Source: a virus. Taken from it: 21,176 nucleotides of DNA. The first letter of the stretch is position 1. The number at the start of each line of letters is the position of its first letter. A program made the translations under genes and the position numbers. The notes below the pieces were generated by a model. It made no database searches. It was not told the DNA's origin and worked only from the letters and a program-made list of their open reading frames with translations. Below, one piece after another: positions 2,857 to 19,641 of this stretch. The stretch spans positions 1-21,176 of the IMG/VR virus record IMGVR_UViG_3300005663_001291. The stretch is one strand, 5' to 3'.

Positions 2857-3696
2857 ATGGCAAAGACGATTGTGTACACACGGAAGCAACTGACCAAGGG
2901 CGTACTTGAAGACGTGGCCAAGTACCTGAACAAATCCATCCCGCTGACAAAGACGCCGATTGCTATCGGCAAGGACACCACGGTGGCGCGCCTGATTGAG
3001 GATATCGGTGGTGTTGTGACAGAGGTGCTCAACATGTCGGACAAGATCAATCCTCAGACCGCGGGCGTGATTAAAACCCTCGGGCTGACTGTCCCGGAAC
3101 CGAAGGTTGATGTAAGCGCCGAAGAAGATCCGGCTGCTGTAGCTTTGGTCGGGGTTGCAAGCGTTGATCTGGCAGCCACCATCGGGAAAATCAACGAGGC
3201 GTTGAAATTCGACGAGCCGATCCCGACCGGTGACGATGAGCAGATGAAGAAAGATATCCTTGAGGTTGCTACCGACCCCAAGGGTCTGACCGCCCAGGAC
3301 AACATCGGTGATGAAGCGCGTGCTGTGATTGCTGCACTGGTAGCCGAGGCCGGTGGTAGTTCTACTGATGGCGAGCTGGACCCCAAGCCCGCCGGGAAAG
3401 AAACCCCACCTGCAAGCCAAGGCAAAAAGGCTGCGGGCAAAAAAGCAGGGACATCAGGTAAATCGCCGACGCCCTCAGCCAAGAAACCCGGCAAGGTTGA
3501 CGTTATCATTGAAGCCCTAAAGGGCAAGGTGAAAACCCTTGATGCAGTCATTGATCAGGCTGAAGCAGCATATGTCAAGGCCGGTGGCAAGCCCAACAGG
3601 AACGGCACGAAGAAAACTGCTGACTGGCTGATTCCTGCATTTGAAACAGTCGGTGCTGTAACGATCAGCGATAAAGGGATCAAGGCCAACTTCTAA
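2857..3696 (+). CDS. Phage protein of unknown function with Lys/Ala-rich linker and possible C-terminal winged helix
   Basis: The start at 2857 is chosen because AAAGGAG (2844-2850) sits 6 bases upstream; an in-frame ATG at 2809 overlaps the promoter and lacks a binding site. The 279-aa product is soluble. Residues 1 to about 80 are mixed helical (MAKTIVYTRKQLTKG...). The middle is acidic and Ala/Gly rich. A disordered basic linker follows (SQGKKAAGKKAGTSGK, then SAKKPGK), similar in composition to histone H1-like tails. The last ~65 residues (VDVIIEALKGKVKTLDAV ... TISDKGIKANF) have the helix pattern and terminal strand of a winged-helix domain. The family is not recognised. A DNA-binding or nucleoid-like role is inference. 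It has its own promoter and a downstream hairpin, so it is a single-gene transcription unit, probably strongly expressed. Confidence 0.7.
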   Translation: MAKTIVYTRKQLTKGVLEDVAKYLNKSIPLTKTPIAIGKDTTVARLIEDIGGVVTEVLNMSDKINPQTAGVIKTLGLTVPEPKVDVSAEEDPAAVALVGVASVDLAATIGKINEALKFDEPIPTGDDEQMKKDILEVATDPKGLTAQDNIGDEARAVIAALVAEAGGSSTDGELDPKPAGKETPPASQGKKAAGKKAGTSGKSPTPSAKKPGKVDVIIEALKGKVKTLDAVIDQAEAAYVKAGGKPNRNGTKKTADWLIPAFETVGAVTISDKGIKANF

Positions 3697-3729
3697 AGGC
3701 ACAGCTGGCTCCCTGCCGCAATGCAGAAC

Positions 3730-3764
3730 CAGGAGGGCAGTAATTTAAGGCCCCTGCCCTCCTG
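3730..3764 (+). terminator. Strong hairpin, likely transcription terminator
   Basis: CAGGAGGGCAG (3730-3740) is perfectly complementary to CTGCCCTCCTG (3754-3764), an 11-bp GC-rich stem with a 13-base loop, starting 34 bases after the stop of the 2857 gene. The sequence after it (ATTCTTAAATC) has only a weak U tract. It may therefore be an imperfect intrinsic terminator, or an mRNA-stabilising hairpin. It separates the preceding gene from the AT-rich glycosyltransferase cassette. Confidence 0.6.
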
Positions 3765-3806
3765 ATTCTTAAATCAAAATATAACCAATAGGATTTGATT
3801 ACTACA

Positions 3807-4094
3807 ATGAAGCGTACCAGAAGCAAACCAAAAGACAAACCTGTCGAAAAAAAGAGCAGAGCCCTCTTTGATATGCCTACATGGCAAGAGAATGAATGGC
3901 AAGGGATGCCAGAATTTGTTCAAGAGGATCTGACCCTTCATTCTTTAGTTGTCCATTTCCAAACGAAAGAAGACATTGAAGCTTTTTCTAAATTGGTTGA
4001 TCAACAAATCACAAGCAAAACCAAATTCATTTGGTATCCGAAAGTCACCCAAGAACAACTTGAGAAGCTTAGATTTGTTGATGAGGAAGAATGA
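3807..4094 (+). CDS. Small phage protein upstream of and coupled to the TAGT glycosyltransferase
   Basis: This 95-aa protein has a basic N-terminus (MKRTRSKPKDKPVEKKSR) followed by a compact domain: EWQGMPEFVQEDL, then VVHFQTKEDIEAFSKL, then KTKFIWYPK. The domain resembles, from memory, a short module found in phage proteins and next to ParB-like or DNA-modification genes; no biochemical role can be stated. The ATG at 3807 is preferred over an in-frame TTG at 3795, which lies directly on the only SD-like AGGA (3790-3793). Its stop overlaps the next start as ATGA, so the two are translationally coupled and probably act together. Like its partner it is visibly more AT-rich than the flanking clamp and dnaE genes, which suggests a joint origin by transfer. 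Confidence 0.7.
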   Translation: MKRTRSKPKDKPVEKKSRALFDMPTWQENEWQGMPEFVQEDLTLHSLVVHFQTKEDIEAFSKLVDQQITSKTKFIWYPKVTQEQLEKLRFVDEEE

Positions 4095-4924
4095 ACCCGA
4101 GATATCCAGTTTATATCATTTCCAAAGGCAGATGGGAATCTAGACACACTGTCAAGTCGATGGAAGACATGAACTTGCCATATCACATCGTGATTGAACC
4201 TCAAGAATATGGTCAATATGCAGCTGTGATCAATCCATCTAAAATCTACACGCTGCCATTTAAGAATCTTGGTCAAGGTTCAATACCTGTAAGGAATTGG
4301 GTATGGGAACATTCAATATCAATTGGAGCCAAGCGTCACTGGATCCTTGATGATAATCTGAATTGGTTTTATAGGCTCAACCGTAATATCAAAGCACGAG
4401 TTGCATCTGGAACAATCTTTCATGCTGCTGAGGATTTCATTGATAGATATGAGAATGTTGCAATCGCTGGCTTTCAATATGAAATGTTTGCTCCAAGAAA
4501 AAAAAGATGGCCGCCATTCCAACTTAACACACGCATATACAGCTGTATCCTGATTCAAAATGATATCCCATACAGATGGCATGGTAGGTACAATGAAGAC
4601 ACAGACCTTTCATTGCGGGCCCTGAAGGATGGCTGGTGTACGATCCTATTCAATGCCTTTCTGGCTAACAAGCTTCCAACCATGACCATGAAAGGTGGCA
4701 ATACTGATGAGCTATACAAAGATGACGGCCGCCTACTCATGGCTCAATCTCTACAGCAACAACACCCAGATGTCACAGAGATAGTATGGAAGTGGGATCG
4801 TTGGCAGCATAGGGTAGACTATACACCGTTCAAAAAGAACAGGCTGATCAAACGACCTGGTATTACTATCCCCAAGGGGATCAACAACTACGGTATGAAG
4901 CTTATCAATATAGCTGATGAATAA
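4091..4924 (+). CDS. TET-associated glycosyltransferase (TAGT) family protein, predicted DNA base glycosyltransferase
   Basis: The 277-aa protein matches the TAGT pattern predicted by Iyer, Aravind and colleagues to glycosylate oxidised pyrimidines in phage DNA. It starts YPVYIISKGRWESR, a GT-A-like first strand. It has a short IVIEPQEYGQY segment, LGQGSIPVRNWVWEHS, and the metal/nucleotide-sugar motif HWILDDN with D87-D88-N89. Also present are PPFQLNTRIYSCILI, the acidic RYNEDTDLSLR (E169, D170, D172) and KGGNTDELYKDDGR. Length is normal and no truncation is seen. Cytoplasmic; no signal or membrane segment. No TET/JBP dioxygenase is in the window, so the hydroxylated acceptor base must come from elsewhere in the genome, or the acceptor differs. 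Start overlaps the upstream stop (ATGA). AT-rich codon use contrasts with the next gene. Confidence 0.85.
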   Translation: MNPRYPVYIISKGRWESRHTVKSMEDMNLPYHIVIEPQEYGQYAAVINPSKIYTLPFKNLGQGSIPVRNWVWEHSISIGAKRHWILDDNLNWFYRLNRNIKARVASGTIFHAAEDFIDRYENVAIAGFQYEMFAPRKKRWPPFQLNTRIYSCILIQNDIPYRWHGRYNEDTDLSLRALKDGWCTILFNAFLANKLPTMTMKGGNTDELYKDDGRLLMAQSLQQQHPDVTEIVWKWDRWQHRVDYTPFKKNRLIKRPGITIPKGINNYGMKLINIADE

Positions 4925-4941
4925 ACCGAAAAGGAGACCCA

Positions 4942-6018
4942 ATGGCAAAACGAACAAGAGGAACCACAGCACCACCAGTACAGGACGGTCACGGCGGACT
5001 GAAGATTAACCGGTCGGTATTCCTCGATGCGCTGACCAAGGTCAAGCCCGGTCTGGCCAATAAAGAGATCGTTGAACAGTCCATCCACTTCATCCTCGAT
5101 AACGATCGTATCTGGACTTACAATGATCAGCTCGCTATCAGCCATGCGATCAAGACCGGCATCACCGGGGCTGTCAAGGCAAGTGAGTTCCACGCGCTGA
5201 TCAGCAAGATCGATGGCGATGACATCTGGTTTGAGCAGCAGGAAGGGCAGATCTTAATTGAAGCAGAACAGGACAGCGCGACCGTTAATGTTGACCCGGA
5301 TATCAAGTCGCAGGGTATCACCGTGCCGGGGATCAACAGTCGTCAATGGAAGCCCCTGCCGGGAAACTTTGTCGATGCGGTGCGGGCCTGCCTATTCTCG
5401 GTAAGCAAGTCCCTGGATCGCCCGGCGCTGAACTGCCTGTGGGTTGATCAGGATATGATCATCTCCACTGACCGGTACCGGGCTTCACAGCACGTGCTGG
5501 ACGCCCAGATCGAACAACCATTCATGCTACCATTTATTGCAGCCAAAGAGATTGGCAATTACAATCCATACAAGGTATGCGTCGAGGACCGGTGGATTCA
5601 CTTTGTCAACAAGGAGAAGACGTTCTTTTCCTGCCGGGTTACCGATGGTGAATACCCGGTCGAGACTGCAATGGCAATCTTCGACGCCAAGGGTAAGAAG
5701 TTGACCCTGCCGGATAACCTGGATGCCGCGATTGACTTTGCTGATTCGATCCTGGTCGAGGACTTTGCAATCGATAAGTTCGTCACGCTGACGATCGAAC
5801 CGGGGCTGATTACCTGTTCAGGTCTGTCTTCGATTGGCCAAGCCAACAGGCGGATCAAGGGCGAGAACGGATACAAGGGCGCACGTATCCAGGTTGATGT
5901 CAACCCGGCGTTCCTCAAGGAGATAATCGGCCGGCTGGATACGGTTGTGATCGCCGACCGGCTGCTGTTTGAAGGTGAAGGGTTCAAGCACGTACTGTGC
6001 TTGGTAGATGACGAATAA
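4942..6018 (+). CDS. dnaN: DNA polymerase III beta subunit-like sliding clamp
   Basis: At 358 aa this is the size of a bacterial beta clamp (three clamp folds). Recognisable parts are the N-terminal FLDALTKVKPGLANKE, where bacterial clamps carry the first helix and a v.p....l...l pattern; LTKVKP with WTYNDQLAISHAI (typical D..l.i...); central STDRYRASQHVL; and CRVTDGEYPVE, equivalent to the conserved G-YP segment. It should tether the DnaE polymerase encoded at 10211, loaded by the ATPase at 15373. It begins with an extra basic peptide, MAKRTRGTTAPP, absent from bacterial clamps and like the ends of other proteins here. The start is fixed by AAGGAG at 4931-4936. Confidence 0.88.
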   Translation: MAKRTRGTTAPPVQDGHGGLKINRSVFLDALTKVKPGLANKEIVEQSIHFILDNDRIWTYNDQLAISHAIKTGITGAVKASEFHALISKIDGDDIWFEQQEGQILIEAEQDSATVNVDPDIKSQGITVPGINSRQWKPLPGNFVDAVRACLFSVSKSLDRPALNCLWVDQDMIISTDRYRASQHVLDAQIEQPFMLPFIAAKEIGNYNPYKVCVEDRWIHFVNKEKTFFSCRVTDGEYPVETAMAIFDAKGKKLTLPDNLDAAIDFADSILVEDFAIDKFVTLTIEPGLITCSGLSSIGQANRRIKGENGYKGARIQVDVNPAFLKEIIGRLDTVVIADRLLFEGEGFKHVLCLVDDE

Positions 6019-6027
6019 GGGATCAGA

Positions 6028-7440
6028 ATGAAATTCAAAAGAAGCAACCAGGACTATACTGCATTCCTCAAAACCAAAGCCATATCTGATAACCCATCAG
6101 GATTTGATGTTGATCTTGATGATCTAAATCAGATGCTTTTTGATTGGCAAAAGGTGCTGGTCAAATGGAGTCTCTACAAAGGCAGGTCTGCATTGTTTGA
6201 GGATTGCGGTCTGGGCAAAACGCCTCAGCAATTAGCATGGAGCGATACAGTGCATCAAAAAACAGATGGCGATATTTTAATTCTTGCGCCATTGGCCGTA
6301 TCAATCCAGACGCAAAAGGAAGGCGAGAAGTTCGGGGTCGACGTCAATGTGTGCAAAACGCAAGACGGGATGAAGCAGGGCATTAACATAACTAATTACG
6401 AACGGCTTCATCATTTCGATCAGGCAGATATTGCAGGCATAGTACTGGATGAAAGTTCAATCCTCAAAAACTTCGCTGGCATGATTCGCAACCAGATCAT
6501 TGATCAATTCATTTCTGTCCCGTTTAAGCTGTGCTGTACCGCCACGCCAGCCCCAAATGACTACATGGAACTGGGCAATCATTCTGAATTTCTTGGCGTG
6601 ATGACCCGGACTGAAATGCTGGCCATGTTCTTCATCAATGATTCTGGCGAAGCCGGAAAATGGAGACTGAAGGGCCACGTCAAGGATAATCTATTCTGGA
6701 AGTGGTTAAGCTCATGGGCCGTTATGCTATCAATGCCATCTGATCTTGGTTATGAAAATGGAGGATTCGAACTTCCCGAGATCAAATATCATGAATGCAT
6801 AATCCCGACTACGGCCAAACCAAAGAGAGGGCTCTTTGTAGATGAGGTCCAGACTCTTAATGAACGCCGGCAGGTCCGCAAGGAAACCATAGATATTCGC
6901 ACTCGGCTGGCGGGCAATATCATAAACCAAACCGATGACAGATTCGTCATATGGTGCAATCTCAATGATGAAAGCGCAGCACTTACCGAATGCATTGACA
7001 GTGCTATTGAGGTTGCAGGCCGACACGACAATGATATCAAATCCAAAAGGATGCTTGATTTTGCATCTGGGCAAATACGGCGGATAGTCACCAAACCAAA
7101 GGTCGCCGGGCTCGGAATGAATTGGCAGATATGCCATAATGCTATCTTTGTCGGGTTGAGCGATAGCTGGGAACAACTCTATCAGGCAGTGCGCAGGATA
7201 TGGAGGTATGGCCAAGTCGAAGAGGTCAATATATATATCATCATAGAAAGCCGAGAGGGTGCGGTCTTGAAGAACATAAAGCGCAAAGATAGGCAGGCCA
7301 AAGAAATGATCGAAAATATGATCACCCACACGAAAGAATTGACAAAGCGAGAGCTGGCGCAGACCACAAAGGATATAACCGATTACGTTCCGCAAATTAC
7401 TATGGAGGTTCCAGCATGGCTGCAAAGCCTCCAACCATAA
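6028..7440 (+). CDS. SNF2-like DEAD/DEAH-box helicase (SF2 ATPase)
   Basis: The 470-aa protein has both RecA-like lobes of a superfamily 2 SNF2-type translocase. Motif I is GLGKT (61-65), motif II LDESS (DESS at 141-144, as in phage SNF2 proteins), motif III TATPAPND (from 171), a lobe-2 GLGMNWQ motif V, and motif VI QAVRRIWRYGQ (from 386, arginine fingers R389/R390). It should be an ATP-driven dsDNA translocase. The gene starts 9 bases after the clamp stop. It overlaps the next gene by 25 bases. Its combination with a downstream DNA methyltransferase is a recurrent phage pair; here a radical SAM gene is placed between them. Base composition is more AT-rich than in the clamp gene. Start at 6028 has only GGGATCAG upstream, a modest binding site. 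Confidence 0.88.
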   Translation: MKFKRSNQDYTAFLKTKAISDNPSGFDVDLDDLNQMLFDWQKVLVKWSLYKGRSALFEDCGLGKTPQQLAWSDTVHQKTDGDILILAPLAVSIQTQKEGEKFGVDVNVCKTQDGMKQGINITNYERLHHFDQADIAGIVLDESSILKNFAGMIRNQIIDQFISVPFKLCCTATPAPNDYMELGNHSEFLGVMTRTEMLAMFFINDSGEAGKWRLKGHVKDNLFWKWLSSWAVMLSMPSDLGYENGGFELPEIKYHECIIPTTAKPKRGLFVDEVQTLNERRQVRKETIDIRTRLAGNIINQTDDRFVIWCNLNDESAALTECIDSAIEVAGRHDNDIKSKRMLDFASGQIRRIVTKPKVAGLGMNWQICHNAIFVGLSDSWEQLYQAVRRIWRYGQVEEVNIYIIIESREGAVLKNIKRKDRQAKEMIENMITHTKELTKRELAQTTKDITDYVPQITMEVPAWLQSLQP

Positions 7441-8591
7441 CAGAACAGGATCTTTTCAAGCATTTGGATAGAGCCAAAAATGTGTTGCTCCTGGAGCCTA
7501 ATTACCGCCGGAGCTATATGCCACTTGCCCTTGCTAAGATCGCAACATACATAAAGGATCGAGGTGGTCAGATAACCTTTTCCAGATCAGCCAATGTAGA
7601 TCCTGGGCCGTCAGGCAAATTTGATTTGATTTGCGTCACCTCCATCTTCACGACTGATAGCAAGATTGTGATTGCCGCAATCAAAGAATGTAAGCGGGAT
7701 ATGTTTCTTGCAGGCGTACCGCTTATTGTCGGGGGCATATTCGCATCACTAATGCCGGAATATCTTTACAAAGAGGCTGGCGCCCCAATCTTCGTTGGAT
7801 ATTCAAGAAAGCTGGATAAGCAAATGCCAGACTACACAATTGATTGGCAGGTCAAGCCACCATGGGACGATGCAATGCTTGTTTTCACAACCAGAGGATG
7901 CCCTAACAAATGCGGATATTGCATGGTGTGGAGAATGGAGCCGGAGTTTTATATCGAACCAAAATGGAAGGATGCAATTTCCAAGAATGACAAACCGATT
8001 GCAATCATTAGTGACAATAATCTGCTCGCGGCCCCTATTGAGCACTTGCGGGCAGTCGTGCAAACTCTCAATGATAATCAAAAGCAAGTGATTTTCAACA
8101 ACGGAATAGATTGTCGGCTGATCAATAATCAGAATGCCAAGCTGCTGGCCACATTGAAGTATACCAGGAATGGATTCAGAACTGCTTTTGATAGAATGTC
8201 GGATGATGGCCATTATCAGCAGGCAATGGAAATGGTGATCGCGGCAGGGCTGAAGGTCAAGGGCAATTCTTATACGTATGTTCTTTTCAATTTCGACGAT
8301 ACTCCGCAAGAAGCTTACTACAGAGCCAGAGAATGCTGGAAATACGGCAGCAATCCATACCTAATGAGATACAGGCCGCTTAACCAAGCAACACACCGCC
8401 TTGATTACGTCAGTAAATACTGGAGTCCTGCATTGATAACCGCATTCAGCAATTACGGCCAGAACTTCGGCTATAATCGCAAGGATGGAACTTTTGAATC
8501 TTGGATAAAGGGATATACAGAAGGCGGCAAATGGAAATACAAAAGCAAACTAACAGATAATGATTGGGATAAATGGCACTATAAAAGATAG
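7416..8591 (+). CDS. Radical SAM protein with B12-binding-like N-terminal domain
   Basis: The 391-aa protein has the cluster motif TTRGCPNKCGYC, cysteines 162, 166 and 169 (CxxxCxxC). It is preceded by a Rossmann-like region (RRSYMPLALAKIATYIKDRGG ... GVPLIVGGIFASLMPEY) as in cobalamin-dependent radical SAM proteins. The DxHxxG cobalamin ligand motif is not present, so B12 binding is doubtful. A Trp/Tyr/Lys-rich C-terminus follows (YTEGGKWKYKSK). The start at 7416 has GGAGG at 7404-7408, 7 bases upstream, and lies inside the helicase gene, so translation is coupled. Sandwiched between a SNF2 helicase and a DNA methylase, it may act on DNA bases, but its substrate is unknown. Roles on RNA or protein are equally open. 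Confidence 0.82.
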   Translation: MAAKPPTITEQDLFKHLDRAKNVLLLEPNYRRSYMPLALAKIATYIKDRGGQITFSRSANVDPGPSGKFDLICVTSIFTTDSKIVIAAIKECKRDMFLAGVPLIVGGIFASLMPEYLYKEAGAPIFVGYSRKLDKQMPDYTIDWQVKPPWDDAMLVFTTRGCPNKCGYCMVWRMEPEFYIEPKWKDAISKNDKPIAIISDNNLLAAPIEHLRAVVQTLNDNQKQVIFNNGIDCRLINNQNAKLLATLKYTRNGFRTAFDRMSDDGHYQQAMEMVIAAGLKVKGNSYTYVLFNFDDTPQEAYYRARECWKYGSNPYLMRYRPLNQATHRLDYVSKYWSPALITAFSNYGQNFGYNRKDGTFESWIKGYTEGGKWKYKSKLTDNDWDKWHYKR

Positions 8592-10210: not shown

Positions 10211-13200
10211 GTGTTCATACATTTACACCTACACAATGAGTTCAGTGCCCTGGACGGCTACGGCACGGCCGAGCAATACACCGCCCGAGCAGCCGAGATG
10301 AACTTCTCCCACCTGGCGCTGACTAACCATGGCAATGTAGCCGGGGCGATCAAATGGCAACGCGCCTGCCAGAAGGCCGGGATCATCCCGATCCATGGAT
10401 GTGAAGCATATATCGTCCCAGACATCTCACGCAAGTTCAAAGCCGAACGGCGAGGCCACATCACCCTGCTGGTGACCAACATGGACGGGTGGACAGAACT
10501 TTGCCGGATGCTCACGGTCGCCCACCTGGAAGGGCACTACTATAAGCCCAGGATTGATTTCGAAATGATACGTGAGATGGACCTGTCAGGGTTGATCATC
10601 CTCACCGGCTGCGCCGCATCATTTCTAAATCTACCGGGCGGATTTAAACTACTTGCCGAGCTGCATGAAAAGGGTGCCCGTGTATACTACGAGATCATGC
10701 CACACAATATCGAACCCCAACAGGCTCAGAATCAATTGGTATGTGAGCTATCAGTACAAACCGAGTTCCCCCTTGTGGCCACTAACGATTGCCACTACGT
10801 GCTGCGGTCCGAACACAAGGCACAGGAAATGCTCCTGGCCATCCAGACCAAGGCCAAATGGGATGACCCGAAGCGGTGGTCGTTCGGATTCACCGGGCTG
10901 CACCTGCGGTCAGAACAGGAAATGTTCAAAGCATTTCAGCGCTTGGGTGGCTTCACCGATGCTGAGATACAGCGTGCCCTGGATGCCACCGGGATGATCG
11001 CAGCCGAGTGTGAAGGCTTTGAGATCCCGCAACAGGATATCAACTTGCCGTCGATGGCAGACGATCCAGATAAAGCCCTTGACGACCTGTGCCAAACAGC
11101 CTTGCAGGCGAAGCCATTTAGCGATCCTCGGGCGTACGAGGACAGGTATAGGGTAGAGTATACCTTGATCAAGAACAAGGGATTTGCGGACTATTTCCTG
11201 ATCGTATATGATCTGATTCAATACGCCAATGAACACGGGATTATGATGAGCCCAGGTCGTGGATCGGTCGGGGGTAGCCTGATCGCTTACCTGCTGGGGA
11301 TAACCGAACTTGATCCGATCTATCACGATCTATCTTTCAGCCGGTTCATTAGCGAGGACCGTGTCGACTGGCCCGATATAGATTTGGATTTTCAGAAAGA
11401 GCACCGGGCACGGATCGTTGAATACATCGAGGGCAAATACGGCCAGTTCAATACCTGTGGGATCACAACCGACAGCAGGCTGAAGGGTCGGGCGGTGCTC
11501 AATGATGTGGGTAGAGCTTTCCGGGTACCACCGGCAGACATTGCGCAGGTATCAAAGCTGATCGATACCAAGGCCAAGCGCGACACTGTCAAGACCATGT
11601 TGGACGGAACCGATGAAGGTAGCCGGTTCTATGCGGTGTACAAAGATGCAGCCCGGCTGGCCATGAAGCTGGAAGGGCAACTGCGACAGCACGGGCTGCA
11701 TCCCGGCGCGGTTGTGATATCGGCCGATGACCTGCGCGATGGTAGCCGTGGCAATCTGAAGATGCAAAAGGATCGGGTGGTGTCCTGCTTTGATATGGAG
11801 GATGCAGAATACTGCGGTCTGATGAAGCTGGATATCCTCGGGCTGGTGACCCTGGATGTGCTGGTCTATTGTAAGGAGTTGATTAAAGAATCAAGGTCGT
11901 TTTGGTTTCACCCGGAGAGCGGTGAACACTTTGTTTGGAAAGATTCACCGGGCGGATATATGTTACCCAAAGAAGGGAAAAGAGTCGATTTCGATTACGA
12001 CAAGATTCCATTTGATGACCCCAAGGTGTTTGCCGAAATCAGCGCAGGCAATACAGCCGGAGGGTTCCAGATATCAGGCAGAGCCACCACGCAGCTTGCG
12101 CAGGATATGATCATCACAGAGTTCAAAGATATCGTCGCCCTGATCGCCCTGGTGCGCCCTGGTCCGACCGATAGCGGAATGACTGAGATGTATGTTGCCC
12201 GATCAAAAGGAGCCACCTACGGCCAGCAGCACCCCATCTATGAACAAGTGACAGCAGACACCCATGGGATTCTAATCTACCAGGAACAGATCATGCAGGT
12301 TATTTCCAAGGTAGCCGGGATGTCTGAAAGCGATGCCGACAAAGTCCGCAAGATCATCGCCAAGAAACGAGACCTGGCAGAGTTGGCTCCATATGAGCAG
12401 CAGTTCGTAGACGGCTGCCAGCAGATGGAAACGTTCAGCGCCGAACAGGCCAGAGCGTTCTGGGCTAACCTGCAAGAGCTGGGCAAGTACGGATTCAACA
12501 AGGCGCACTCAACCGGATATGCCGTCCTGGCCTACTGGACGTGTTGGTGCAAAATAAATTACCCAGGCGAGTTCCTCGCGGCTTGCCTTACATACGATGA
12601 GAAGGAGGACAAGCAACGATTGATCAAAGATGCATACCGGTATGGGTTCACCGCCAGTTACCCCAAGGACGGCCTATCAGACCCCCTGCGGTGGACAATC
12701 CACGACCGGGTAATGTATGCCCCGTTTTCTGAGATCATCGGCATGGGTGAGACCGAGGCGAAGCGCGCCGCCGGCCAGGGGCCAGAACGCAAAACGCGCA
12801 TGAAGGGTTTCTTCAATATGAAGCCGGTAGTCAATCAGCAAAGTGATATCGGCAAAGTGCTCAAGGCGGCGGGCGTGTTTGATCCCGAGCGGATGTTCAC
12901 CACCGAAGAAGCCGGGCAGCTATTCAAGTTTGTGATCGACCCTGATCTGACCCCTACGCAAGACAGCGGCGAGCCCGGAGCTGATTATCCAGAGCTGAGA
13001 AAGATCTTACTTGACCTTGATCCGGTTTATGCAGCCGAATTATGGTTTGATATCCCTGGTGAATTTGTCAACGCAATCTCATTGCCGTCCGGGTTGATAA
13101 CTGAAGAGCACGCAATCGCACAGGCGTTCAAAGGTCCGCTGTGTCCTGACCTGAAAGATTGCTATGATTGCCCGCTGGGTGATCAGACCGGCAAAGGTCC

Positions 13201-13714
13201 GGTAGGTCCGACCATGGGCAAATACAACATTATGATCACCGGGGAAGCACCTGGGCCGGAAGAAGATGAACACGGATGGGGGTTCTACGAAGGGGCTCCG
13301 GCTGGTAAGCTGTTGTGGGATACCTTGCTAAATAGACAGGCTCGCAAAGGGAAGTGGAATCTACCCCGAGAGTTTTTCTACGTGACTAATATCTGCAAGT
13401 GTTATCCGTCTAAGACCAGGACGCCATCACACACCGAAATCGAGACTTGCTACGACCGGTGGCTGCAACATGAGATCGAACAGATGCAGCCGCGTATTAT
13501 CCTGGCCTTCGGCAATACATCGCTGTACGCTTTCACAGGGGAGAAGGGCGGGATCAATAATCTATCGGGCAAGGTCCAATGGAACGAACGCGTACGGGCC
13601 TGGATAGTATGGTGTGCTCATCCGGCGAGTGTAAAGCGCAGCGGGGATTCGCAGTACTTTGACCGGGGTATGGAAACATTCTACAAGATATTGTTGAAAG
13701 CATGGGGGAGATAA
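10211..13714 (+). CDS. dnaE: DnaE-type DNA polymerase III alpha subunit fused to a C-terminal uracil-DNA glycosylase-like domain
   Basis: The 1167-aa protein uses a GTG start with AAGGA at 10201-10205. Residues 1 to about 260 are a PHP domain (HLHLHNEFSALDG, then LTNHGN and GCEAYI). The C-family polymerase core follows: PGRGSVGGSL, catalytic PDIDLDF (D389, D391), KLDILGL (D541, the third Asp), LVRPGPTDSG, IYQEQIMQV and FNKAHSTGYA. In place of the usual OB-fold tail, residues ~975-1167 look like a family-4 uracil-DNA glycosylase. They carry C984xxC987, GEAPGPEED (1011-1019), C1064 and C1080 with 15 residues between, TNICKCYPS, LAFGN and CAHPAS (H1137). The four cysteines match the iron-sulfur ligand spacing of that family. 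It is one continuous frame. It should copy the phage genome with the clamp at 4942; the UDG part may sense or remove uracil. The downstream methyltransferase start overlaps its stop. Confidence 0.92.
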   Translation: MFIHLHLHNEFSALDGYGTAEQYTARAAEMNFSHLALTNHGNVAGAIKWQRACQKAGIIPIHGCEAYIVPDISRKFKAERRGHITLLVTNMDGWTELCRMLTVAHLEGHYYKPRIDFEMIREMDLSGLIILTGCAASFLNLPGGFKLLAELHEKGARVYYEIMPHNIEPQQAQNQLVCELSVQTEFPLVATNDCHYVLRSEHKAQEMLLAIQTKAKWDDPKRWSFGFTGLHLRSEQEMFKAFQRLGGFTDAEIQRALDATGMIAAECEGFEIPQQDINLPSMADDPDKALDDLCQTALQAKPFSDPRAYEDRYRVEYTLIKNKGFADYFLIVYDLIQYANEHGIMMSPGRGSVGGSLIAYLLGITELDPIYHDLSFSRFISEDRVDWPDIDLDFQKEHRARIVEYIEGKYGQFNTCGITTDSRLKGRAVLNDVGRAFRVPPADIAQVSKLIDTKAKRDTVKTMLDGTDEGSRFYAVYKDAARLAMKLEGQLRQHGLHPGAVVISADDLRDGSRGNLKMQKDRVVSCFDMEDAEYCGLMKLDILGLVTLDVLVYCKELIKESRSFWFHPESGEHFVWKDSPGGYMLPKEGKRVDFDYDKIPFDDPKVFAEISAGNTAGGFQISGRATTQLAQDMIITEFKDIVALIALVRPGPTDSGMTEMYVARSKGATYGQQHPIYEQVTADTHGILIYQEQIMQVISKVAGMSESDADKVRKIIAKKRDLAELAPYEQQFVDGCQQMETFSAEQARAFWANLQELGKYGFNKAHSTGYAVLAYWTCWCKINYPGEFLAACLTYDEKEDKQRLIKDAYRYGFTASYPKDGLSDPLRWTIHDRVMYAPFSEIIGMGETEAKRAAGQGPERKTRMKGFFNMKPVVNQQSDIGKVLKAAGVFDPERMFTTEEAGQLFKFVIDPDLTPTQDSGEPGADYPELRKILLDLDPVYAAELWFDIPGEFVNAISLPSGLITEEHAIAQAFKGPLCPDLKDCYDCPLGDQTGKGPVGPTMGKYNIMITGEAPGPEEDEHGWGFYEGAPAGKLLWDTLLNRQARKGKWNLPREFFYVTNICKCYPSKTRTPSHTEIETCYDRWLQHEIEQMQPRIILAFGNTSLYAFTGEKGGINNLSGKVQWNERVRAWIVWCAHPASVKRSGDSQYFDRGMETFYKILLKAWGR

Positions 13715-15372: not shown

Positions 15373-16308
15373 ATGCCGCTGCATATTGATTACCGACCAA
15401 ATGATTTTGATCAAGTTATTGGTAATACATCTACAATCAAAAGTATGCTGACCATACTCGAAAGAGAGAACAAGGACTTCCCCCATGCGATAATGCTACA
15501 CGGACCACGAGGCACTGGTAAGACTACCTTAGCATATATTTGGGCCAAACACTTAGGTTGCCCGCCCGAAATAAAAAAGGGCGAGACAAATATAGATTTC
15601 CGAGAGATCGATACAGCACAGCAAACCGGGGTAGATACAGCGCGTGATATAAGAGGCGAGATAAGATACAGACCCATTAACTCAGATGTCCGGGTTTACC
15701 TACTTGACGAATGCCACAAAATGTCGCCGGCGTTTCAAAACGGAATGCTCAAGGCAACAGAAAAGCCGCCCTCTTTTGTTTATTTTATCTTGTGTACTAC
15801 CGAACCGAATAAAATCATCCCCACGCTGACAAGTCGCTGTATGAAGTTTGCGACTGAAAAAGCAAGCGATATCGATTTACAGAACTTGGCATTAGATATC
15901 TTTGAAAGTGAAGGGCTTATTAATATCAGCAGTGATATTCTCAATGCCCTTGTTAAAAGTGCGGACGGTGCACCCCGAGAACTACTCATCAATATGGATA
16001 AGATCCTGGACCTGGATCCAGATGAAATGATGGAAGCTATTATTCAGGTCGATCAACAACAGGTGATTGATCTCTGCCGGGCGCTGATCAAAAAACAACC
16101 ATGGTCAGCCATTGCCCAGATCCTACAGGGTATCAAGGACAACCCCGAACAAGTACGCCTGGCCGTGATGGGCTACATGAGCACAGTACTGTTAAACAAT
16201 GACCGGCTGGACAGCCACGCACTGCTGATTATGAACTGTTTTAAGGATCCCAATTTCAACAACGGCAAGCCCGGCCTGGTCACTGCTTGCGCCGAGGTGT
16301 ATATTTAA
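15373..16308 (+). CDS. Clamp loader ATPase subunit (DnaX/RFC-like)
   Basis: The 311-aa AAA+ protein has the clamp-loader signature: YRPNDFDQVIGN at the N-terminus, Walker A GPRGTGKTT (44-52), Walker B VYLLDECHK (D112-E113), sensor 1 CTTEPNK, and the SRC motif (154-156) that places the arginine finger of loader subunits. A helical collar-like C-terminus follows. It lacks the four-cysteine zinc module of bacterial DnaX, so it is closer in plan to RFC small subunits or T4 gp44. No second loader subunit (delta-like) is recognised in the window. It should open and load the clamp at 4942. AAAAGGAG at 15355-15362 precedes the ATG by 10 bases. The first half is more AT-rich than the second. Confidence 0.88.
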   Translation: MPLHIDYRPNDFDQVIGNTSTIKSMLTILERENKDFPHAIMLHGPRGTGKTTLAYIWAKHLGCPPEIKKGETNIDFREIDTAQQTGVDTARDIRGEIRYRPINSDVRVYLLDECHKMSPAFQNGMLKATEKPPSFVYFILCTTEPNKIIPTLTSRCMKFATEKASDIDLQNLALDIFESEGLINISSDILNALVKSADGAPRELLINMDKILDLDPDEMMEAIIQVDQQQVIDLCRALIKKQPWSAIAQILQGIKDNPEQVRLAVMGYMSTVLLNNDRLDSHALLIMNCFKDPNFNNGKPGLVTACAEVYI

Positions 16309-16314
16309 TTCATC

Positions 16315-16347
16315 TTGATTTTAACCCAACGACCTATAATATATATA
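16315..16347 (+). promoter_or_regulatory. Promoter for the recombination operon (repeated phage promoter motif, copy 2)
   Basis: The 53-base gap before 16362 holds TTGATTTTAACCC, then CCTATAATATATATA (TATAAT at 16335-16340, TATATA at 16342-16347). Aligned at CCTATAAT with the block at 2775-2806, the two agree at TGATTT, CCC, AC and the whole CCTATAATATATA. Depending on which element is used, TTTAAC at 16320 is 16 bases from TATATA. It is followed by AAGGGGG, the ribosome binding site of the UvsY-like gene. Confidence 0.6.
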
Positions 16348-16361
16348 AGGGGGTAGCAAAT

Positions 16362-16919
16362 ATGGACGATCAAATAGAATACGATTACCAGAAAGACCTG
16401 GCGATTGATCTTGACCGGCTTGAAGAAGAGTGCCTGGAGCATCCGCAGCTGTATATGAAGTATGTAATTGCGTTGGCAGAGATCAAAAAGCTCAAGGCAA
16501 AAGTCTGGGAGCGGCTCAAGATACGTCGGAGCCAATTGGCCAAGGAAGCCAAAGATCACGGCGCTACTAATGCGACTCTGGTTGAAGCATACTACCGGGA
16601 TCATGAAGACCACATCGCGTTGAAAGAAGAACTAATCGAGGCTGAATATCAGGTAGATATCATCCAGGGTATAGTCGATGATTTTGGATATCAGCGCAAG
16701 GCCATGCTGGAACATGAAGTGTCGTTGTGGATTGGCCAATGGTTTGCCGGCCCGAAGGAACCACGTATATTGCAAGGTGGCAAACGGCTAATCGCTATGC
16801 AGACCGCTTCCATCGAAGGTACAGCCAAAGGGATACGTGCAGCGCTGAATAAGGATCGGGCCAAGACAGAAACAACACCACCAACTGGCAGAAAGACCAG
16901 AAGTCGCAGTCGCGGTTGA
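16362..16919 (+). CDS. UvsY-like recombination mediator
   Basis: The ATG at 16362 has AAGGGGG 8 bases upstream; the longer frame from 16287 would cross the promoter. The 185-aa helical protein starts YDYQKDLAIDLDRLEEECLEHPQLYMKYVIALAEIKK, which has the D..ID...L..E....P.LY.KY plan of T4 UvsY. It continues with charged coiled-coil segments (ERLKIRRSQLAKEAK, then LKEELIEAEYQVDIIQGIV). In T4 UvsY loads UvsX recombinase onto gp32-covered single strands. The downstream SSB and RecA-like genes fit that trio in the same operon. The C-terminus ends in a basic peptide (GRKTRSRSRG) also found in other proteins here. The assignment is by pattern, not by search. Confidence 0.65.
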   Translation: MDDQIEYDYQKDLAIDLDRLEEECLEHPQLYMKYVIALAEIKKLKAKVWERLKIRRSQLAKEAKDHGATNATLVEAYYRDHEDHIALKEELIEAEYQVDIIQGIVDDFGYQRKAMLEHEVSLWIGQWFAGPKEPRILQGGKRLIAMQTASIEGTAKGIRAALNKDRAKTETTPPTGRKTRSRSRG

Positions 16920-16922
16920 GAT

Positions 16923-17081
16923 ATGAAATGGGCAATCATCATAATCGTACTTGTGATCGCACTGGTATTTGTTGCACGTGTGATCACCAGAATCACTGTC
17001 AGAACTTACTATGAAGAAAGGAAACGGTATTATGGACAGAGAAGAACAAAGACGGAGGATGAGGGAGAGGACGGCGCGTAG
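16923..17081 (+). CDS. Small single-pass membrane protein
   Basis: The ATG at 16923 follows the UvsY-like stop by 3 bases and encodes 52 residues. Residues 4-20 (AIIIIVLVIALVFVARV) form one strong membrane helix, followed by a basic (RITVRTYYEERKRYYGQRR) then acidic tail. Its last 50 bases overlap the start of the SSB gene in another frame, so the two are probably translationally coupled. Such short membrane proteins in phages can be lysis- or superinfection-related, but nothing here tells which. The ribosome binding site is weak. Confidence 0.5.
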   Translation: MKWAIIIIVLVIALVFVARVITRITVRTYYEERKRYYGQRRTKTEDEGEDGA

Positions 17082-18270
17082 CGCAGCCAATACGAAGGCA
17101 ACCGGCCTGGGCAGAAAAACCGTCCTGGATCTAACCGTTGTTGGTGACCGGACAATCGATCAATACAGGATGAAGGGAGGGGTCGGTATCAAGAACGCCC
17201 TGGACATCCTACCATATGAGATCACCCAAGATTGGTACAAGGACATGCGGGAACCCAGCGGTGCTCCGACTGGGCTGGCCGTGGGTGATAGTGATTACAA
17301 ACTTGAGTACGGCGTACACAAACGCCAGGGTGAAAACCAAGACACCGTGCTTTGCCTACGGCTTACCTTCGGGCGTCAGTGTCCCATGTGTGAACCGATG
17401 CAGACCCTATGGGGTATTGACAAGGCCAAGCGCACCATTGATCAGCAGAAGATGCTGGACTTCCTCAAGCCCAGTTGGCGGTGTTCATACAACGTGTTCG
17501 ACTACGATGAGCCGGCCAAAAACATCCAGCTATGGGATGACCAGAGTTATAAACTTTTCGAGGAGCTGCTCAAGCTGCGCATCCAGACAGACCCGGAAGG
17601 TCTACAGGCGTTTTCGGATCTGGAGACTGGGCTGATTGTAGAGTTCGAAGGGGTTTCAAAGACATTGGGCACCAATACCAAACCCTTCTATGAGGCTGCG
17701 CAGTTCGCCTTCCTGCAACGGTCGGAGCCGTGGCCGTATGAAACCTTGCAGGAAACATTCCCACTCGATCAGATGTTGCCGATCCCGACCTATAATGAAG
17801 TGGCCGCGATCTTTAACTCTCTGGAAGCCCCGCCTGATATGGACGGTTACGATGATCAGCAACCTACGGCCGGCACAAGATCAAGGGGTGATGCTGGCGG
17901 CGGTCGTAGCCGGGATGATGCTCAGCCAGGCGCTACCCAATGTTCGGGCGGGCATACGCTCGGCAAGGATTACAACCAATTTGAAAACTGCAATGCTTGT
18001 GACGAACAGGAATATCAGCAATGCGCAGATCTGAATAGACCTGACGGTGACACTGCGGATAGTCCGGGCGACGGTAGCCAACCATGGACACCGGGTCAAT
18101 CAGATGCCCCCGCTGACAATCAGCCGGCAACGAACACACGTAGTCGGACCCGTGAGGCTGATGCCGGTGGTGACCAGCCTGCTACTGGACAAAGAACCAG
18201 AGGGCGCCAGGACACACAGCCCCCTGCCGACCCCGGCACCCGGCAAAGAGTACAGCGCACGCGAGGCTAA
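17032..18270 (+). CDS. Single-stranded DNA-binding protein, T4 gp32-like
   Basis: The start at 17032 is supported by AAAGGA at 17017-17022, 9 bases upstream; an upstream ATG at 17011 has no site. The 412-aa protein begins with a basic peptide (MDREEQRRRMRERTAR), like the cooperative-binding N-terminus of gp32. Then comes a core with an H..CPMC zinc-knuckle pattern (LTFGRQCPMCEPM) as in gp32, WRCSYNVFDY, IQLWDDQSYKLF and LIVEFEGVSK. A long disordered tail follows, with a second Cys cluster (CSGGHTLGKD ... CNACDEQEYQQC) seen in other phage SSBs. It ends in several repeats of an R-S-R-G or R-T-R-G peptide and closes with VQRTRG. It coats single strands during replication and recombination, between UvsY-like and RecA-like partners. 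Confidence 0.82.
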   Translation: MDREEQRRRMRERTARSAANTKATGLGRKTVLDLTVVGDRTIDQYRMKGGVGIKNALDILPYEITQDWYKDMREPSGAPTGLAVGDSDYKLEYGVHKRQGENQDTVLCLRLTFGRQCPMCEPMQTLWGIDKAKRTIDQQKMLDFLKPSWRCSYNVFDYDEPAKNIQLWDDQSYKLFEELLKLRIQTDPEGLQAFSDLETGLIVEFEGVSKTLGTNTKPFYEAAQFAFLQRSEPWPYETLQETFPLDQMLPIPTYNEVAAIFNSLEAPPDMDGYDDQQPTAGTRSRGDAGGGRSRDDAQPGATQCSGGHTLGKDYNQFENCNACDEQEYQQCADLNRPDGDTADSPGDGSQPWTPGQSDAPADNQPATNTRSRTREADAGGDQPATGQRTRGRQDTQPPADPGTRQRVQRTRG

Positions 18271-18274
18271 CACC

Positions 18275-18529
18275 ATGGATTCAACCTACATATCCACACG
18301 TGATGCCCACGCCCTGACGGTGGCGGCCGGTATTGATCCGATCACATTCGTCACCATCAGGACGTGGGTACACAAATATAACCTGGGCAAAAAGATAGGT
18401 GGCCGGCTCCGCATTGACAAAACCAAATACATGGAATTTCTACACGGTGATAATGAATGGAAAGAACGCGCGAAGAACAACCAAGGCAGCGGGGTCGATC
18501 CCGAGCAGTACCCGCTTCGGAACTGGTAA
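18275..18529 (+). CDS. Small helix-turn-helix DNA-binding protein (excisionase/MerR-like)
   Basis: An 84-aa protein with GAGG (18263-18266) 8 bases before the ATG. It reads YISTRDAHALTVAAGIDPITFVTIRTWVHKYNLG, then KKIGGRLRIDKTKYMEFLHG. That is the winged HTH plan of excisionase/MerR-type domains: helix, turn, recognition helix with TIRTWV, then the GGRLRI wing and a final helix. In this position, between SSB and RecA-like genes and overlapping the latter by 73 bases, it may regulate this operon or assist recombination; that is inference. No integrase is near, so an excisionase role is not supported. Confidence 0.7.
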   Translation: MDSTYISTRDAHALTVAAGIDPITFVTIRTWVHKYNLGKKIGGRLRIDKTKYMEFLHGDNEWKERAKNNQGSGVDPEQYPLRNW

Positions 18530-19641
18530 CCCAAGCAGAAGAGCATAGCGCCCAGCCGGTTGTGCCCCAGGCCAAGATCGACACTTCCGTGCTGATCCCC
18601 AGCGGGTTGACGTTACTGAATTGTGCCTGTAGCGATAACCCGCTGGGGGCATTTGCACTCGGCCGGATTGCTACCATACCGGGAGCATCACAGGGGGGCA
18701 AGACCCTACTGATGCTGAATATGCTTGCCCAGGTTGCTACAGATCCCCGGTTCGATGAACACGAACTGATCTATGACGACTCCGAAGAGACAATGGAATC
18801 ATTCGATATACCACATCTATTCGGGCTAAAACTGGTCAAGCGTATCCGGGCTCCATTCTACGATGGTGATGATCCGATTCACAGCAACACCATCCAAGAT
18901 CTCAAAGCGTATCTATTAGAGAAAACCAAGCCTGGTCAACCGCCGTTTATATACGTAGCCGATTCGCTGGATGCCCTCACTACCGATGAAGAGCTAACGC
19001 GAGAATACCAGAATGCACTAATCAAGGCCGCCAATCCCGAAGCGGTGGAAGAGTTGAAAAACAGCTACAAGGCAGAAAAAGCCAAGGGCATTGGTGAAAC
19101 CCTGCGGATGATCAATGGTAGTCTAAAGAAAACTCAGTCTGCCCTATTCATCGTCCAGCAAGTCCGGGCCAAATTCAATGCAATGAAGAACGCCCGGCAA
19201 TGGACAACCAGCGGGGGCAAAGCCCCATTCTTCTATAGCACTCATCAGGCGTATCTGACCAAGGTCAAGACGCACAATCCAGAAATCGGCAAGATGAAAT
19301 TGAAGACTGGCATGCGCGCCCGGATTGAACTGATCAAGAACAAACTCACTGGTAAGGAGCGGTCAATTGAAGTCGACGCCTTTGTAGATTACGGCATGGA
19401 CGATATCGGTTCATGTGTAGACTTCCTGGTCAAAGCCGGGCGGTGGAAAAAGGACAAGGCTAAGATCGTCCCGGAAGATCTATTTGGCTCAGCACAACAA
19501 GGAGAGAAGTTCATGCGCCGGGAGCTGGTCAAGCTGATCCAGACTGAACAGGCCGGGCTGGAAATGCAAACCCTTGTGGGTGATACTTGGCTACAGGTAG
19601 AAGAGAAATTCAAGACGGATCGACCTCGGAGGTTTGAATGA
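18457..19641 (+). CDS. RecA/UvsX-like DNA recombinase
   Basis: The 394-aa protein has a RecA-fold ATPase core. It reads VLIPSGLTLLNCACSDNPLGAF, Walker A GASQGGKT (76-83), Walker B FIYVADSLDAL, then SALFIVQQVR, and GGKAPFFYSTHQAYLTK, which matches the GG..lkFy segment of RecA/UvsX. It ends with YGMDDIGSCVDFLVKAGRW, like the RecA region after the core. It should form filaments on single-stranded DNA and drive strand exchange. The N-terminal ~40 residues are disordered, starting MERTREEQPRQRGRSRAV, a basic peptide shared with neighbours. The start lies inside the HTH gene with a weak GGTG site, so it is probably coupled. Its stop overlaps the next start (ATGA). Confidence 0.85.
   Translation: MERTREEQPRQRGRSRAVPASELVTQAEEHSAQPVVPQAKIDTSVLIPSGLTLLNCACSDNPLGAFALGRIATIPGASQGGKTLLMLNMLAQVATDPRFDEHELIYDDSEETMESFDIPHLFGLKLVKRIRAPFYDGDDPIHSNTIQDLKAYLLEKTKPGQPPFIYVADSLDALTTDEELTREYQNALIKAANPEAVEELKNSYKAEKAKGIGETLRMINGSLKKTQSALFIVQQVRAKFNAMKNARQWTTSGGKAPFFYSTHQAYLTKVKTHNPEIGKMKLKTGMRARIELIKNKLTGKERSIEVDAFVDYGMDDIGSCVDFLVKAGRWKKDKAKIVPEDLFGSAQQGEKFMRRELVKLIQTEQAGLEMQTLVGDTWLQVEEKFKTDRPRRFE

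Follow-up and report, generated by a model that had tools for sequence, protein, structure and literature searches.

What is a uracil-DNA glycosylase (UDG) doing at the end of a viral replicative DNA polymerase? The question is raised by one gene in a stretch of viral DNA of 21,176 nucleotides (IMG/VR record IMGVR_UViG_3300005663_001291, positions 1 to 21,176; hereafter the window), for which the original prediction, made from the letters of the DNA, had proposed a DnaE polymerase fused to a family-4-like UDG with an Fe-S cluster.

Architecture of the DnaE-UDG gene

The gene occupies 10211..13714 on the + strand, which also carries the domains and replisome genes given with coordinates below, and is a single 1167-aa frame with no internal stop and a GTG start, directly 5' of which lies AAGGA. 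Pfam placed PHP at residues 4-142, DNA_pol3_alpha at 290-544, DNA_pol3_finger at 588-738 and UDG (PF03167) at 1006-1145 (E=2e-20), which confirms the proposed PHP, DnaE core and UDG in one chain. The protein scored 652 bits against polc (TIGR00594, NCBIfam; curated cut-off 434) and carries the three catalytic Asp residues, both of which mark the DnaE type of C-family polymerase. NCBIfam UDG_fam4 matched residues 984-1144 with 78.2 bits, below its curated cut-off of 125.3, and for this reason we call the domain family-4-like.

Alignment to Taq DnaE set the PHP domain at residues 2-239 (10214..10927), followed by the palm, thumb and fingers of the polymerase core (residues 290-832; 11078..12706; catalytic D389, D391 and D541). 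An HhH region (residues 840-890; 12728..12880) was assigned from its position and from alignment to relatives with Pfam HHH_6, a domain that Pfam did not detect in the window protein itself. The UDG domain (residues 980-1160; 13148..13690) was delimited by Pfam, NCBIfam, a solved-structure match and the predicted fold. Past the core Pfam sees only the UDG, which occupies the place where bacterial DnaE has its OB domain and its tau-binding C-terminal domain. Both of these are absent, and the claim of a complete DnaE stands for the catalytic core only. The window protein has the DnaE-UDG architecture described in 2014, in which PHP, Pol3 and HhH lead directly into PF03167 instead of OB and CTD.

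A conserved YFxF element (residues 904-907) was considered as a clamp-binding site and dropped because it aligned, weakly and in relatives, with the LGFYxSGHP-like element that precedes the OB domain of bacterial DnaE. Some long-tailed relatives (L006, L061, L083, L085, L087, L097, L098, L104 and L106) have about 100 additional residues between HhH and UDG that look OB-like by eye and are suggestively colinear with E. coli, and that could be an ancestral OB retained beside the UDG. We do not claim an OB-like domain in L006, L061, L083 and the other long-tailed relatives, because the hhalign probability was 0.2%.

At the other end of the protein, all nine predicted metal ligands of a self-proofreading PHP polymerase of the Mycobacterium DnaE1 type are present (H6, H8, D15, H40, E65, H83, C134, D193 and H195), and an exonuclease is predicted on this basis. 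The nine-ligand set and its spacing are what we take to be those of Mtb DnaE1; the set is partly backed by Taq PHP D-to-N variants in the PDB.

Fold and active site of the fused UDG

The closest solved relative of the window UDG was TthUDGa of Thermus thermophilus (1ui0, E=3.6e-19). An AlphaFold2 model of residues 833-1167, built with 51 relatives in the alignment, had UDG pLDDT mostly above 90 with a single weaker block (66) around residues 1043-1052, and its best Foldseek match was again TthUDGa (1ui1, E=2e-11, TM 0.80 on target), bearing out the proposed UDG fold. The CX2C, CX15C, GEAPG and HPAS elements named in the original prediction were all confirmed. By alignment, C984-X2-C987 (13160..13171) and C1064-X15-C1080 (13400..13450) are the two predicted pairs of Fe-S ligands. 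Motif 1, GEAPGPEED...F (13241..13282; GEAPG at 1011-1015), would line the uracil pocket, with E1012, E1018 and F1025 equivalent to E41, E47 and F54 of TthUDGa; N1060 (13388..13390) is the equivalent of the uracil-binding N80, and H1137 of motif 2, HPAS (1137-1140; 13619..13630), that of the catalytic H155. The domain thus shares with TthUDGa the fold, the four Cys of a predicted cluster and these five residues, but TthUDGa is a free enzyme, and its G42 and N89 correspond in the window to A1013 and T1069 (13415..13417), the latter a substitution typical of the class that removes the water-positioning Asn of family 4. Membership in UdgX was rejected, as the CX15C loop has no KRRIH insert and motif 1 is GEAPG, not GEQPG.

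To judge conservation, we drew on an IMG/VR scan with a UDG profile, which gave 396 relatives, 80 of them kept and most of these DnaE-UDG in one frame; 58 non-redundant fused domains were scored. The equivalents of H155 and N80 were present in 58/58 and that of E41 in 57/58; the Fe-S ligands C13 and C16 were each kept in 57/58, and C84 and C100 in every domain. The patterns used to fetch loci contained GEAPG or T/S-N..KC, so that the counts for E41, N80 and C84 in part reflect this selection, while the counts for H155, C13, C16, C100, E47, F54 and N89 are free of it. A further scan that used DnaE core patterns only, and so gave a sample unbiased by UDG motifs, agreed with this active-site conservation, with one dead exception, L282. 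The N89 position behaved differently: it was Asn in 62/62 cellular homologues, but was replaced in 55 of the 58 fused domains (Thr in 32, Ile in 8 and Ser in 7; Asn kept in 3). In TthUDGa, uracil is bound by N80 and stabilised by H155 as it leaves, N89 positions the water, and the N89A variant keeps its Km with a roughly 7-fold lower k2/Km (PMC5387724), from which slow excision rather than loss of excision would be expected of DnaE-UDG.

Two variants within the class deserve mention. L091, and also L081 and L286, have QD instead of EA/EG in motif 1, a natural counterpart of the TthUDGa E41Q-G42D doublet. In L114 and L115 (DnaE-UDG frame 3696-8327), an intein lies within the UDG domain, directly following the KC pair in the Fe-S loop.

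Spread, history and two states of the fusion

An assembly artefact joining two genes near 13100 was considered as an explanation of the fusion. No support for such a join was found, beyond the window being a 21 kb metagenome fragment; in a whole-protein scan of IMG/VR, relatives matched through to the UDG end, and the identical layout was present in 58 non-redundant contigs, many with only 26-43% tail identity to the window. Because the join recurs in contigs this independent and this divergent, we consider it excluded that the fusion is an assembly product, an explanation left with a negligible probability.

The architecture itself is not new. A DnaE in which a PF03167 UDG takes the place of OB and CTD was published in 2014 as a polymerase that certain strains of Yersinia pestis and Salmonella have in addition (PMC3919608), and, judging from its hosts and from sequence comparison, the enzyme of Timinskas et al. 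would be the polymerase of SSU5-type phage-plasmids. The join is common among uncultured phages, and many phages and hundreds of phage-plasmids have it in fused or degenerate form, so the suggestion that a DnaE-UDG fusion is unusual was only partly right. Literature searches, with subscription papers outside their coverage, found no further report of DnaE-UDG, and the paper on the YerA41 polymerase does not mention a UDG. A Syntrophaceae MAG contig also carried the fusion; its DnaE core lay at zero tree distance from that of a viral contig, which suggests that the MAG contig may be viral.

In a tree of the DnaE core, a single group (SH-aLRT 98) took in every fused or degenerate form together with two long-branch rows without UDG. 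In the near clade of the DnaE-pattern sample, 15 loci were fused and 6 stopped about 50-65 aa past the core without a UDG. With UDG-less relatives added to a second tree, UDG presence required 6 changes, or 4 when the rows scored as lost were counted alone, and the history looks most simply like one old gain followed by at least four losses. The UDG-domain tree did not reject a single DnaE-linked UDG clade (p-AU 0.42), nor did it demonstrate one. The UDG is under purifying selection, with dN/dS of 0.035-0.16 where measurable; together with the repeated losses, this indicates a domain that is selected but dispensable. L282, which lies near the window, has a dead UDG that keeps its Fe-S ligands but has N80 changed to T and H155 to N, and it is sister to the UDG-less L285, a pair that we read, from their sequences, as decay preceding loss. 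The close relative L015 (2259-6971) has a DnaE split into pieces; its palm carries an intein-like insert, and its chain stops just short of the UDG position. No separate UDG in trans was found in the records searched for UDG-less relatives, several of which are short fragments. A different kind of change was observed between L056 and L060, whose DnaE cores are 99% identical and UDG domains 92% (dS 0.04 versus 0.38), which suggests that the UDG may have been exchanged by recombination.

The SSU5/nickie/RHEph10-type members represent a second state of the design. They share with the window the order of PHP, Pol3, HhH and C-terminal UDG and the same DnaE-core tree group, but their UDG has lost its active site and Fe-S ligands and their PHP domain its metal site, all of which the window keeps. 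In 21 non-redundant members the nine PHP ligand positions were lost (L219 retains one His), while the polymerase keeps its Asp triad. In the UDG of SSU5, nickie, RHEph10 and relatives, N80 and H155 have no equivalent left, and few or none of the Fe-S Cys remain. Their C-terminal domain, modelled from an alignment of degenerate members only, is nevertheless predicted to be a family-4 UDG, with a TM of about 0.7 to solved family-4 UDGs. This branch shows that H155 and the Fe-S Cys are needed neither for the fold nor for survival of the polymerase. PHP ligands were intact in nearly all members with an active UDG site, and in L008 the PHP site is intact beside a UDG that is dead. Loss of both sites predicts a separate proofreader in the SSU5-type branch, and a search for DnaQ-like exonuclease (PF00929) agreed, with a match in 11/12 dead-branch records versus 2/16 active-branch records; with incomplete contigs and a dead branch that forms a single lineage, this pattern counts as one contrast, not many.

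What is new is that, by residue comparison, the window branch keeps the predicted UDG and PHP sites in cis, while the cultured SSU5-type branch has lost both. One replicase design with two editing sites, set against relatives with none and an apparent separate exonuclease, is a natural comparison, and the relatives that shed the UDG altogether add a further contrast. Such comparisons would allow tests of whether polymerase-joined uracil repair alters fidelity or uracil content, and of what benefit a replicase has from carrying a dead glycosylase.

UDG has been joined to other viral polymerases. Phage PolA with an N-terminal UDG is known from Pseudomonas phage PaBG (PMC7412058), and the solved phiLo polymerase (9qhs) is a further PolA-type enzyme with a UDG. 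Like the window gene, these have a family-4-like UDG fused to a phage DNA polymerase, but the polymerase is of family A, the UDG is N-terminal, and five aligned PolA-type domains keep N89 where the window has T1069. Vaccinia D4 belongs to a different UDG family from the window's family-4-like domain. It is likewise physically part of a viral replicase, the E9-A20-D4 holoenzyme (PMC3946371), but as a separate subunit held via A20 to a family B polymerase.

Gene neighbourhood and candidate functions

The window encodes further replisome genes on the + strand: a sliding clamp (4942..6018; phrog_947), a clamp loader (15373..16308; domain and PHROG matches), a UvsY-like recombination mediator (16287..16919; profile match), a single-strand binding protein (17011..18270; phrog_1192) and a RecA/UvsX-like recombinase (18457..19641; domain and PHROG matches), all of them members of a conserved block. 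Around DnaE-UDG in 80 loci, many of them truncated, we found SSB in 53, RecA in 41, loader in 40 and clamp in 25, and the clamp, DnaE-UDG, loader, UvsY-like, SSB and RecA genes recur as a group. This recurring block marks DnaE-UDG as the main replicase.

We think it somewhat probable that DnaE-UDG is the phage's main C-family replicase with PHP proofreading and UDG uracil-editing modules in cis. The N-terminal PHP, with its full predicted metal site, would probably proofread as a 3'-5' exonuclease, and the C-terminal Fe-S UDG would scan DNA at the fork for uracil from misincorporated dUMP or deaminated C, flip it into the conserved pocket and probably excise it. The conserved uracil pocket and catalytic His lend indirect support to the detection of uracil at the fork that the original prediction proposed. 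With its water-positioning Asn replaced, the domain would excise more slowly than a free family-4 UDG, and the abasic site would presumably be repaired by other enzymes. Against uracil editing stand the replacement of N89 in most fused domains, the missed UDG_fam4 cut-off, the lack of a UDG in several close relatives and its death in L282, and the absence of a consistent uracil-metabolism partner in fused records (dUTPase in 2/35, ThyX in 6/26, ThyA in 4/26 and dCMP deaminase in 3/26).

The main rival is that the UDG serves mainly as a non-catalytic DNA-binding or processivity module in place of the OB and CTD, much as D4 does in the poxvirus processivity factor. D4 has a catalysis-independent role in replication (PMC1936997, PMC3946371), and many phages and phage-plasmids of the SSU5-type branch, in which this role probably applies, keep a dead UDG fold at the corresponding position. 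For the UDG in general, such a role is possible if rather unlikely: DNA binding alone would need neither H155 nor the Fe-S ligands and uracil pocket so strictly kept in the window branch, the whole domain has been lost at least four times with the polymerase retained, and the phage encodes its own sliding clamp.

Archaeal family-B polymerases stall at template uracil, via a different pocket. By analogy, the UDG might read ahead, binding uracil in the template and making the polymerase stall while excising little or none of it. The kept pocket, the frequent N89 replacement and the unchanged Km of TthUDGa N89A might suggest this; since N89A leaves substantial activity, the N89 change alone gives no pure reader, and with the catalytic His invariant we regard this as quite unlikely. 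A milder version, in which N89 loss retuned the fused UDG to bind uracil normally and cut slowly, with recognition coupled to polymerase pausing before excision, is doubtful; if true, a bacterial-type replicase would have uracil surveillance as an integral part.

Recognition of a modified pyrimidine in the phage's own DNA, raised in the original prediction, found no conserved genomic support and is very improbable. The window does have a TET-associated glycosyltransferase, a radical SAM protein, QueD/QueE and a DNA methylase, but such genes are missing from near the polymerase in most DnaE-UDG relatives, and the pocket has the set of residues used for uracil. Neither QueD/E nor MTase nor HD phosphatase was a conserved neighbour among relatives, and we dropped a link of DnaE-UDG to uracil or base-modification metabolism.

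The window phage itself may have modified DNA, to judge from its gene content: a TET-associated glycosyltransferase (PF20691, 1.3e-42) is encoded at 4091-4924, with the QueD/QueE, radical SAM and DNA methylase genes nearby. At 1103-2752, the QueE (radical SAM) frame is broken by a HINT/HNH intein, which appears to sit directly ahead of the third Cys in the CX3CX2C motif.
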